NCBI GenBank assembly: GCA_004292755.1
Contig: RDXE01000024.1
Coordinates: 1 to 64,000 of the forward strand
DNA from: Alphaproteobacteria bacterium
Lineage (GTDB): Bacteria; Pseudomonadota; Alphaproteobacteria; Elsterales; Elsteraceae
DNA: 64,000 bases
Reading direction: 5' to 3'
Below are positions 22,907 to 26,255 of this stretch, piece after piece. The position numbers and the translations under genes were made by a program. The notes beneath the pieces were generated by a model. It did not search any database. It was not told the DNA's origin and was given only the letters and a program-made list of their open reading frames with translations. Position 1 is the stretch's first letter; each line of letters opens with the position of its first letter.

Positions 22907-23659
22907 ATGTCAACAGACCCAGCACCCAAACCCAATATCCACCCCCCGCAAGACGCATCCGCTGTGGCGCCGTCCTCGCCACTGGCAAGAAGGCGATCCT
23001 CCGCCGTTGAAGTGCTTCTCTTTGGCATCGTGGCGACGCCGGTCACAGCAATGATTCTGCTGGCCCAAACCTCGTCTCGCATGCAGACCCAGATCTTGGC
23101 CGAGGTAACCGAACTCCCAATCGCCTACCTCTCGTCCGTGCACCAGTGCGCTGCCGTCAGCGGGAGCCGCGAAGCGTGCAATCGGATGTGGACGCAAGCC
23201 ACTGAGTTGCATCGAAGCGGCATGCAGCTGTTTGCCGACGAGCGGGAATGTCGTGTGGCCTCAGAGCGGTGCGAGTCGGTTCCCAATGCAGTGGGACGGT
23301 TCATCCCATCGATGACCGCTGTAGTGATCAGAACCGATGTGCCTGATCCGTTGGCCCACGGAAAGCCAGTATGGACCCGTGCGTCGGGGGAGTTGCGCCA
23401 TTTCAATGTTCCGGTGGCATTGAGCCGCATACAGCCGGGCAACTCTAACTCGCACGTTGTGCTCACACGGTGTGAGTGGCGTGGCCAGCAGATGGACCAG
23501 TTTGCCATCTGTCGCAGCGGGAGCGGGAGCGCGACTGGGGTTCCACCCAATGTCGGGTTCGGCAATAGCTATACTCATGTGACGTGGAACGACGCTGGCC
23601 GCAGCACCACGGTTCGGGGGGGCTTTGGCAGCATTGGTGTGCGCAGCGCGGGAGGCTAA
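22907..23659 (+). CDS. DUF1190/YgiB-like membrane-anchored protein
   Basis: The 250-residue protein has a cytoplasmic proline-rich start, one TM segment (VEVLLFGIVATPVTAMILLA, about 34-53) and an extracytoplasmic part with seven Cys (in HQCAAV, EACNRM, ERECRVASERCES, TRCEW and AICRSG) and a Gly/Ser-rich end. YgiB/YjfM proteins are found with YgiC/YjfC ATP-grasp proteins, as here. The function is unknown. Confidence 0.78.
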   Translation: MSTDPAPKPNIHPPQDASAVAPSSPLARRRSSAVEVLLFGIVATPVTAMILLAQTSSRMQTQILAEVTELPIAYLSSVHQCAAVSGSREACNRMWTQATELHRSGMQLFADERECRVASERCESVPNAVGRFIPSMTAVVIRTDVPDPLAHGKPVWTRASGELRHFNVPVALSRIQPGNSNSHVVLTRCEWRGQQMDQFAICRSGSGSATGVPPNVGFGNSYTHVTWNDAGRSTTVRGGFGSIGVRSAGG

Positions 23660-23662
23660 CCG

Positions 23663-24799
23663 ATGGACCGGCAACTCTGTCGGATGCGTCCCGACTGGCA
23701 GCGACGCGTGGAGGAGCGTGGCTGCGCCTTCCACACCAGCAATGGTATCCAGTACTGGGTAGAAGGGGCGTACTACCAGTTCACCTTAGATGAAATTGAC
23801 CGGATCGAAGCCGTTGCTAGTGAATTGCACGAGATGTGCTTGGAGGTCGTGTCTGATACGGTCCAGCGCGGCGATTATCAGTCATTCTGTTTGCCAGAAA
23901 ACGCTATTGGCTTGATTGAGGCTAGTTGGAGGCAATCGCATAAAGGTATCTATGGACGATTTGATTTATGCATCGGCGCATCAGACGATCCAAAACTCTA
24001 CGAATACAATGCCGATACACCGACTGCGCTTCTAGAAGCGGCGGTGCTACAGTGGGATTGGCTGGAAGACGTTGGCCTGAAACTGGTTCCCGGTGCGGAC
24101 CAGTTTAACTCCATCCACGAGCGTCTGATCGCGCGCTGGCGGGAGGTGGAGGTGTTGTCACCCGTGCTACACGTCACCGGCCTCGCCAGCAGCCGTGAGG
24201 ACTGGTCAACTGCGCTCTATGTGGCTGAAACCGCAATGCAAGCAGGTCTGTGCTCCAAAGCGGTACCGATTGACGATATCGGGTGGCAAGACGGCGTGCA
24301 GTTTGTTGACCAGGATGACCAGCCGATCCGCACCTTATTCAAGCTCTACCCCTGGGAATGGCTGCTAGCGGAAAGTTTCGGGCCCTACATCACTAGCGAT
24401 GCGCCACGGATGATTGAGCCTGCTTGGAAGCTGTTGCTCGCCTCCAAGGGCGTGCTGGTGGAGCTTTGGCGGCGCTTTCCAACCCATCCAGCGCTGCTGC
24501 CTGCGAGCTTTGTCCGCGCTGAGATCGATGGTCCGGCAGTGCGCAAGCCGGTTTGGGGGCGAGAGGGCAGCAATATCCTGTTGGAACGTGCAGGTCGCGC
24601 GCCGATCCGCACCGATGGTCCTTTTGCCGAGGGGCCATTTGTCTGGCAACGCGCGCATTCACCACGACTGGTCGGCGGCGCCTATCCGGTCATTGGTGCG
24701 TGGATGGTGGGGGACACAGCCTGCGGTGTTGGAATCCGTGAAAGCGACGGTTTGGTGACTGATGATCGGGCACGCTTTGTGCCTCACCTCTTTGCTTAG
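23663..24799 (+). CDS. Glutathionylspermidine synthase-like ATP-grasp protein (YgiC/YjfC)
   Basis: The 378-residue protein has the C-terminal (synthetase) fold of GspS without the amidase half: GRFDLCIGASDDPKLYEYNADTPTALLEAA (substrate and Mg site), YPWEWLLAESFG, LLASKGVLVELWRRFPTHP and KPVWGREGSNI, where ATP-grasp Lys and the GREG loop lie. It is likely to ligate a peptide-like acid to an amine, but YgiC itself was not shown to make glutathionylspermidine. It follows the YgiB gene by 3 bp. Confidence 0.88.
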   Translation: MDRQLCRMRPDWQRRVEERGCAFHTSNGIQYWVEGAYYQFTLDEIDRIEAVASELHEMCLEVVSDTVQRGDYQSFCLPENAIGLIEASWRQSHKGIYGRFDLCIGASDDPKLYEYNADTPTALLEAAVLQWDWLEDVGLKLVPGADQFNSIHERLIARWREVEVLSPVLHVTGLASSREDWSTALYVAETAMQAGLCSKAVPIDDIGWQDGVQFVDQDDQPIRTLFKLYPWEWLLAESFGPYITSDAPRMIEPAWKLLLASKGVLVELWRRFPTHPALLPASFVRAEIDGPAVRKPVWGREGSNILLERAGRAPIRTDGPFAEGPFVWQRAHSPRLVGGAYPVIGAWMVGDTACGVGIRESDGLVTDDRARFVPHLFA

Positions 24800-24810
24800 G
24801 GACGTTCCCA

Positions 24811-25200
24811 ATGGTCAGAAGCGCGTTGACTTTCGCCTTATACTTCGCAGCCTCTATCAGCCTGCTAGGTATATTTTTGATGGCCTATGTTCGGCTGACC
24901 CGCCATGCGGAGTTCGCTGCCATCCGTGCGGGTAATACTGCAGCCGCCATCAGTTTGGGTGGGGCCACCCTTGGCTTTGCGTTGCCAGTGGCAGAGATCG
25001 CGCGCAATTCCGTCGGCGTCGACGAATTCTTGATCTGGGCTTTGGTCGCAGGAGTGGCACAAGCGATCGTCTATCTTGCGGCTCGCGCGCTGTGGCGCGA
25101 CCTCTCTGATCAGATTGATCAGGGGTCGACGGCGCACGGCATAGCGCTGGCTGCCTTTTCCCTCGCGGTGGGTGTGCTGAACGCGGCCTGCTTGAGCTAA
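24811..25200 (+). CDS. DUF350 membrane protein (YjfL-like)
   Basis: The 129-residue protein has four hydrophobic segments; AIRAGNTAAAISLGGATLGFALPVA is the typical DUF350 segment, here with a second half (ALAAFSLAVGVLNAACLS). Genes for YgiB/YjfM, YgiC/YjfC and DUF350 commonly travel together, which this operon repeats (11 bp after ygiC). The role may be in the envelope or in polyamine handling; neither is proven. Confidence 0.82.
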   Translation: MVRSALTFALYFAASISLLGIFLMAYVRLTRHAEFAAIRAGNTAAAISLGGATLGFALPVAEIARNSVGVDEFLIWALVAGVAQAIVYLAARALWRDLSDQIDQGSTAHGIALAAFSLAVGVLNAACLS

Positions 25201-25254
25201 GCCCGCGCAGGTGGCTACACTCCCCCAGCTTTGGTGAGGGCATTGGTGGTTGGC

Positions 25255-25523
25255 CGCTGGTGCTCGAGAGGGAATGGGGTGTGGGCCACCGGGGATATCC
25301 ATCCTCCGTCTGGTCCAAAGCCTCAGCCGCCCCCGCGACCGTAAGCGGCGCTTGGCGCTGAGGCGACCCAGGGACCATGCCTGGATCGTACCACCGTGTG
25401 CCAAGACACTAGGATGGGGCAGGGAAGTGTTCGCTTCCTGTGCCACGCCACCGCAGCGCCACTGTCCGCACGGGATGGGAAGGGGGTGCGGGGGAACCGA
25501 AGCCGCAAGCCGGGAAACCTGCC
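25255..25523 (+). promoter_or_regulatory. Cobalamin riboswitch
   Basis: All landmark elements of the AdoCbl riboswitch are present in order: GGGAA near 25270, the CCCCGCGACCGTAAGCGG core (25331-25348), the B12-box GCCACTG (25458-25464) and GGGAAGG (25477-25483), and GCCGGGAAACCTGCC (25509-25523). The element is long because of a large insert between the core and GCCACTG. A GC-rich stretch able to pair with the region before GGAGG follows (25524-25590), so B12 probably blocks translation of the gene at 25602. Confidence 0.93.
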
Positions 25524-25601
25524 AAGGCCGCGCCGCCGTCCCACCGGCTGCGCCGATCCTGTCCATTGGCGCCGCGGCGGGCGGCGTGCGGAGGTCTTCC
25601 T

Positions 25602-26255
25602 ATGCATATCGAGCTTGGCATCATCGATCCGGTGCGGCTGGCTGCCGCCAACACGGCAGCAGTGGCTGTTGTGGCAACCCAGGCACCGGCTGGCTGGCGC
25701 GCCCCTGTCGTGTTGGTCAAAGCAGGTATCGTTACCTGTTTGGTCAGCGCGCTGATGCAATCCTGGCAGTTATCGGTTGGACCGTCGGAGTTGCACCTGA
25801 TCGGCGCGACCACGATGTATCTGGTGTTCGGCTTCCCCGCGGCGCTGATCGGCTTTGCCGGTGCGTTGCTGCTGCAAGCACTGGTGTTTGAGCCAGCGGA
25901 TATGGCCCATATCGGCGTCAACACCCTGTCCTTGACCCTGCCGCTGCTGGCGGCGCACCTGACCTTTGGGCGCCGCTTGTTTGCAGCCACGCATCAAGAC
26001 CGCTTTACCCTGGCGCGGGTGGTGCGGCTGGATGCCGTTTACTACGCCGGGGTGGCGGCGATGGTGGCGTTCTGGCTTGGCATTTCCAACGACCCAGCCC
26101 CGGTTGCCGACTGGGCGCGCTGGGCCCTGGCGTATCTGCCGGTGTTCCTGGCCGAGGCGACCTTGACCTATGGCACCGTCGCCCTGTTGAGCCAGTGGCG
26201 TGATCGCCGGACGGTCCGCGCATTCACCGTCGTTGGGTCGCTACGCACGGCCTAA
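25602..26255 (+). CDS. CbiM-like energy-coupling-factor transporter S/permease protein
   Basis: The 217-residue membrane protein starts with MHI, whose His2 is a metal ligand in CbiM/NikM. It has about six TM segments. SELHLIGATTMYLVFGFPAA and the DMAHIGVNTLSLTLPL region carry His and Asn residues fitting the CbiM family, which takes up Co2+ (or Ni2+) for cobalamin synthesis. CbiN, CbiQ and CbiO are not adjacent. A cobalamin riboswitch upstream supports cobalt transport. The start has GGAGG 7 nt upstream. Confidence 0.82.
   Translation: MHIELGIIDPVRLAAANTAAVAVVATQAPAGWRAPVVLVKAGIVTCLVSALMQSWQLSVGPSELHLIGATTMYLVFGFPAALIGFAGALLLQALVFEPADMAHIGVNTLSLTLPLLAAHLTFGRRLFAATHQDRFTLARVVRLDAVYYAGVAAMVAFWLGISNDPAPVADWARWALAYLPVFLAEATLTYGTVALLSQWRDRRTVRAFTVVGSLRTA

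Follow-up and report, generated by a model that had tools for sequence, protein, structure and literature searches.

In the btuB and env8 corrinoid riboswitches, a kissing interaction between loops L5 and L13 stabilizes P13 and hence the hairpin at the ribosome-binding site (PMC10653944, cited from a partial text). For cobalt transport, an excerpt of a review gives CbiM together with CbiN as the minimum (PMC7689651). Here, we describe a cobalamin riboswitch upstream of a lone cbiM gene in an alphaproteobacterial genome (G000), on a 64-kb stretch of DNA that is referred to in its entirety as the window. The locus was compared with that of a sister species (G001) and with other fetched loci, which carry L-numbers. 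The reading that we favor, with a probability of about 0.84, is that cbiM, taken to encode a cobalt-uptake protein that stands alone, is controlled by a cobalamin riboswitch that represses translation and whose P6 accessory arm is enlarged. The coordinates of all features are collected in Table 1.

A cobalamin riboswitch precedes cbiM

The covariance-model scan that had been proposed as a check returned a single Rfam match above the gathering threshold in the 64-kb window, to the cobalamin riboswitch family RF00174. This match, on the forward strand at 25216-25540, extends over the entire model (positions 1-189 of 189) and scores 40.2 bits against a gathering score of 31.5 (E 1.1e-6). By comparison, 13 other riboswitches scored 82.9-124.3 bits, and the low value in the window counts against its reading as a working switch. 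The low score is due mainly to the Rfam alignment, in which 108 positions are left unaligned and the insertion is put at the wrong place. For a separate model, R1, which does not contain the window, 26 riboswitch sequences were taken out of the 31 extracted, the five left aside being L048, L042, L025, the long L006 and the second hit in L034; it spans the region from just 5' of the CCACUG motif to just 3' of the B12 box. R1 gave a single, complete match in the window at 25445-25524 (39.1 bits, E 6.1e-8), corresponding to the 3' half of the aptamer, which indicates that the core is intact and that the extra sequence lies 5' of the CCACUG arm.

According to motif positions, a pair check, folds and R1, the conserved stretches (the L5 motif, CCACUG/GGGAAGG, the B12 box, P1, P2 and P13) are all intact once the insertion is correctly placed, in agreement with the original observation that all consensus elements are present. 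The riboswitch also lies where it had been located, at 25255-25601, but that range begins too late and so misses P1 (25226-25234) together with the greater part of P2 (25238-25265). We conclude that the window riboswitch, although long, is an ordinary representative of the widespread RF00174 class.

Table 1. Features of the riboswitch and of the gene downstream, in window coordinates.
Feature	Position	Strand	Basis or remark
Cobalamin riboswitch aptamer	25216-25540	+	RF00174 match
P1, 5' strand	25226-25234	+	Pairs with 25522-25530, 8 of 9 pairs standard (pair check)
P2 hairpin, 12 bp, UUGG loop at 25250-25253	25238-25265	+	Pair check
P4 with extended L4	25276-25324	+	L4 insertions also in relatives
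P5/L5; CCCGC at 25332-25336 complementary to L13	25326-25337	+	Sequence
P7, 5' strand	25345-25349	+	Pairs with 25502-25506 in free fold
Inserted domain, three hairpins (25363-25389, 25391-25417, 25418-25444)	25363-25444	+	Free minimum-energy fold
Conserved P8-P10 arm, CCACUG...GGGAAGG at 25459-25483	25451-25491	+	Folds; R1 match
B12 box AAGCCGGGAAACCTGCC	25507-25523	+	RF00174 match and pattern match
Predicted RBS-sequestering helix, 25555-25562 with 25588-25596, stacked on P13	25555-25596	+	Constrained fold, prediction only
P13 hairpin, 7 bp, L13 GGCGG	25569-25587	+	Pairing statistics, shuffles
Shine-Dalgarno sequence GGAGG	25590-25594	+	Sequence
Orphan CbiM, 217 aa	25602-26255	+	PF01891, 1.4e-28

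An inserted domain enlarges the accessory arm

The part between the core and the B12 box had been described as about 110 nt longer than usual; the excess is real, but it amounts to about 90 nt. The comparison of lengths covers 41 distinct sequences, an uneven sample drawn from the fetched loci, in which both the L5 motif and the B12 box were recognized by two patterns. In the window, L5 motif and B12 box are 165 nt apart, the longest such distance among the 41 sequences examined, versus 65-122 nt in the other 40 and a median of 76 nt for all 41. The excess of ~89 nt lies entirely 5' of the CCACUG motif, which follows the L5 motif at 116 nt in the window, at 20-26 nt in 28 sequences and at 50 nt in three, with nine of the 41 lacking a match to the motif.

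In the free minimum-energy fold of 25336-25515, P7, P8 and P10 are canonical and the excess forms three hairpins between P7 and P8; the fold is unchanged when P8-P10 are enforced (-81.0 kcal/mol in both cases). An alternative helix within the insertion, 25354-25360 with 25454-25460, competes with P8 at a cost of 3.5 kcal/mol and was set aside. No orthologue of the inserted domain was found among the sequences compared, so the three hairpins stand without support from covariation. A mobile or repeated element was likewise considered and rejected, at the sensitivity of a search in which the 115-nt stretch 25376-25490 matched nowhere else in the assembly of 4.21 Mb.

The P6 accessory arm that houses such an insertion is described as highly variable (PMC9600662, partial text), and we regard the insertion as the long end of known variation. 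The window riboswitch is useful as an example, at the upper end, of an insertion into the accessory arm that is aligned wrongly by a covariance model. If the insertion had instead broken the aptamer, binding would have been lost and cbiM would be expressed constitutively. The low Rfam score would agree with such decay, as would the sister species described below, which lacks the aptamer, so that control of cbiM appears dispensable in the genus. However, the conserved parts from the L5 motif to P13 are in place, and the insertion, placed in an arm of known variability, folds into closed hairpins with the canonical arm still present in the free minimum; we consider a decayed riboswitch decidedly improbable.

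A conserved hairpin adjoins the Shine-Dalgarno sequence

The GC-rich 3' helix that had been noted near the ribosome site corresponds to P13 (25569-25587), which ends 2 nt 5' of the GGAGG Shine-Dalgarno sequence (25590-25594). In this hairpin, GCGGG (25577-25581) is complementary to CCCGC of the nearly invariant L5 (25332-25336), which predicts a kiss between the two. The hairpin recurs, with a loop of the GGUGG or GGGUG type, in orphan-cbiM riboswitches from other genera. Of the 16 loci examined, window and sister included, 11 have it 13-16 nt before the start codon; the hairpins of L010 and L008 lie 108-109 nt before the cbiM start, and those of L001, L007 and L063 serve other genes. Short frames occur in L010 (1404-1427, MTFYPSG) and L008 (1334-1354, MAKPDI) directly 3' of P13 and a Shine-Dalgarno sequence, ~95 nt before cbiM, and may represent riboswitch-controlled leader peptides.

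Pairing in P13 was counted for 13 of the 16 located or known hairpins, with L009 and L023 (6-nt loops) and L063 left out. Pairing was found in 92.3% of 78 cells over these 13 hairpins, a percentage that is biased upward because the stems themselves had helped to locate the hairpins. In 26 cells both sides had changed, compared with a mean of 8.8 in shuffles, none of 500 being as high, and pairing was lost when the partners were slid. A hairpin with a GG[ACT]GG loop at the window's spacing arose in two of 5000 shuffles of the window leader, as judged by a filter written after the hairpins had been seen.

A covarying P13 with a loop complementary to L5, located just 5' of the Shine-Dalgarno sequence, makes repression of translation by B12 likely. 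Adenosylcobalamin or a related corrinoid would fill the aptamer, whereupon L5 (CCCGC) would kiss L13 (GCGGG); the kiss would stabilize P13 and the helix below it that holds the Shine-Dalgarno sequence, and translation of cbiM would fall. When B12 is short, CbiM would be made and would deliver Co2+ for aerobic B12 synthesis (cobU-cobW-cobN), whose genes follow the second cobalamin riboswitch of the genome. The cell would thus probably throttle cobalt uptake when B12 is sufficient.

Constrained folding with P13 formed adds the helix 25555-25562/25588-25596 over the Shine-Dalgarno sequence, which is still mostly paired in the model when P1 and P13 are both formed. However, the Shine-Dalgarno sequence is paired in the free whole-leader ensemble even without P13, which counts against the repressing model, and the folding z-score of the whole leader, only -1.46, is a further point against. 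The free fold of the whole leader (-197.8 kcal/mol) is 14.3 kcal/mol more stable than that in which P1, P2 and P13 are enforced (-183.5 kcal/mol). Because such free folds pair the Shine-Dalgarno sequence without P13, they allow for an activating or mixed mechanism. In an activating switch, the ligand-free 3' strand of P1 (AAGGCC) would pair with GGUCUU over the Shine-Dalgarno region, as it does in the free minimum-energy fold of 25516-25610, and ligand would form P1 and free the site. An activating corrinoid riboswitch has been published (PMC10653944, partial text), and the free ensemble would agree with this arrangement; yet it would turn on cobalt uptake when B12 is plentiful, the modeled pairing of the Shine-Dalgarno sequence with P1 and P13 formed opposes it, and P13 beside the ribosome-binding site is conserved in relatives. 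We therefore consider activation very improbable and retain the repressing switch.

The sister species lacks the aptamer

The CbiM of the sister species (L004, L005 and L050) is 71-72% identical to that of the window. At the sister cbiM (L004/L005), no Rfam match, to RF00174 or any other family, was obtained even at E 1, and R1 gave only a 17-nt fragment inside der; the notion that an aptamer had been missed by the gathering cut-off was therefore rejected. The sister keeps RF00174 at cobU, where cobU and cobW were read by eye from their similarity to G000. Its cbiM starts 88 nt past the der stop, whereas in the window the two genes are separated by three reading frames and the aptamer.

A hairpin of 7 bp with the loop CGTGG (L005, 1039-1055, within 985-1070) stands exactly 14 nt before the sister start codon, as in the window, and its stem shows a G-C to A-U exchange. 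The loop falls outside the strict GG[ACT]GG pattern. Such a hairpin arose in nine of 5000 shuffles of the sister leader, again under a filter written after the hairpins had been seen. Homology by sequence alone was rejected, as a local score of 24 is not significant against shuffles with a mean of 21.3 and a maximum of 33; the case for homology comes from position, loop and spacing. Most simply, the sister would have lost its aptamer through a deletion that ran from der to just before P13, although a misjoin at der-cbiM is possible because this assembly is a fragmented draft (560 contigs, 88% complete).

An orphan member of the CbiM family

The cbiM start codon lies 61 bases past the end of the RF00174 match (25540 to 25602). 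Its product matches PF01891 with 100.6 bits against a gathering score of 23.1 (1.4e-28), the one such match in the whole of G000, and falls short of the NCBIfam CbiM equivalog cut-offs (at best 48.3 of 173 bits). The protein is thus a member of the CbiM family and not a standard CbiM. In an alignment of 13 orphan CbiMs, M1, H2 and H65 are invariant, and those of the window correspond to M1, H2 and H67 in the chain 4m5b, which bears the name CbiM; we take these to be metal-binding residues. The first two residues (Met1, His2) are given as metal ligands in the available part of PMC6828968. An AlphaFold2 model of the window protein reached a mean pLDDT of 79.4 and a pTM of 0.80, with residues 1-5 below 50. 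Foldseek placed 4m5b first among PDB matches (probability 1.00, TM 0.50) and the CbiM chain of CbiMQO 5x3x second (0.97, TM 0.54); none of its 88 matches reached E 0.001.

By sequence, the closest PDB relatives are 4m5b and 4m58, presumably NikM2 structures, and these relatives, like the unreached equivalog cut-offs, would suit a protein that carries nickel or another metal, or that serves as a sensor, rather than a cobalt importer. However, B12 riboswitches and B12 genes occur around cbiM across genera, and neither NicO nor CbtA, the other cobalt importers sought, was found in G000 or in the sister genome. We judge such alternative roles unlikely and continue to read the protein as a cobalt importer. 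Among the 17 genomes carrying CbiM relatives, NicO is present in 10 and CbtA in three, so several relatives have another candidate importer.

In the window, cbiM is flanked upstream by genes for a DUF350 protein and a GSP-synthase-like protein, and downstream by a methyltransferase gene on the opposite strand. No cbiN, cbiQ or cbiO adjoins it, and a genome-wide profile search found no CbiN (PF02553) in G000, which bears out the original description of a lone CbiM-like gene. The glutathionylspermidine-synthase-like protein and the DUF350 membrane protein that follows it occupy 23663-25200, just 5' of the riboswitch; a 250-aa frame at 22907-23659 has no Pfam match. CbiN occurs in three of the 17 genomes with CbiM relatives. 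CbiQ (PF02361) is matched in 10 of them at E 0.001 (nine above the cut-off), on another contig or ~17 kb or more from cbiM, and is unmatched in the other seven.

The only CbiQ-family match in G000 lies on contig 12, in a 762-aa protein that also contains two ABC ATPase regions (an A-A-T fusion). A cluster there (L049, 5145-8773) consists of a TPP riboswitch, a Ykof protein, a PF09819 S-component and the fusion, and a Pfam name in it says cobalt. The location of the CbiQ-type fusion beside PF09819 and Ykof, behind a TPP riboswitch, points to a thiamin-type ECF transporter. CbiM would not be functionally orphan if it borrowed this A-A-T fusion as its motor: the fusion is the one CbiQ-domain protein of the genome, and ECF modules common to many S units are known (PMC3246461 and PMC6828968, both partial texts). 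Yet the thiamin-type cluster has its own S-component and Ykof under TPP control, and the seven genomes whose CbiM relatives are accompanied by no CbiQ-family match also argue against a borrowed motor, which we regard as unlikely.

Other genomes of the class have a B12 riboswitch before an orphan cbiM

At E 1e-10, CbiM relatives were found in 16 of 289 genomes of the class, G000 included. Besides the window, 15 loci were fetched, of which nine have a co-oriented RF00174 match upstream and five (L013-L016 and L018) have none, while L012 ends at the contig start. Three further named relatives, L006-L008, all have RF00174, that of L007 lying 2 kb away before a TonB receptor gene in the same array. 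The arrangement thus recurs in the class, with 12 loci other than the window showing a co-oriented RF00174 match upstream of an orphan cbiM.

In L008, cobW follows cbiM, and in L058, CobU precedes it and a tetrapyrrole methylase follows. The array in L007 (1708-6428) runs from a cobalamin riboswitch through a TonB receptor, CbiM and a FecCD permease to an ABC ATPase, which places this CbiM inside a B12-uptake-like operon. The neighbors in relatives would support cobalt for B12 as the role of CbiM. G000 itself has a second RF00174 match (106.6 bits) upstream of cobU and cobW; downstream of these are a 1207-aa cobN-like and a 489-aa cobQ-like frame, named from a reading of the sequences rather than from a profile match. 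The observations thus establish the aptamer, the anatomy and covariation of P13/L13, the gene family and the missing partners; the ligand, the direction of control, the substrate, and that CbiM works without CbiN, CbiQ and CbiO, are inferred. With RF00174 above threshold, an intact core, a CbiM-family protein (PF01891), no CbiN, and CbiQ confined to a thiamin cluster, B12 control of an orphan cobalt S-component, as predicted from the start, is the best prediction.

Comparison with known systems

The orphan CbiM family matters more than the riboswitch, as B12 switches guard CbiM without CbiN both in G000 and elsewhere in the class. In literature searches on a solitary CbiM, none of the papers listed describes one in its title or in the opening of its abstract. 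Given also that seven of 17 genomes are without a CbiQ-family match, transport by a lone ECF S-component becomes a testable question. We propose tentatively, at a little under even odds, that a family of B12-riboswitch-controlled orphan CbiMs in the Alphaproteobacteria imports cobalt alone, without CbiN, T or A components, and that its regulation is being lost in the genus of the window, where the sister species has dropped the aptamer and kept the P13 hairpin. If true, a CbiM that imports cobalt alone would contradict the minimum given in the review, to which CbiN also belongs.

The window protein resembles the CbiMNQO group I ECF cobalt transporter in its PF01891 domain and in the alignment of M1, H2 and H65 with M1, H2 and H67 of 4m5b; it differs in that its genome is without CbiN, no CbiQ lies near cbiM, and the NCBIfam equivalog cut-offs are unmet. 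With RF00174 riboswitches of the type with a P7-P11 arm, the window switch shares the L5 motif, the CCACUG/GGGAAGG arm, the B12 box, P1, P2 and the P13/L13 kissing-loop partner, but it adds about 90 nt, as three hairpins, between P7 and P8. Like the translational corrinoid riboswitches btuB and env8HyCbl, as presented in a partial text (PMC10653944), it has a predicted L5-L13 kissing loop beside the ribosome-binding site; unlike them, it precedes an orphan CbiM and has an enlarged accessory arm.
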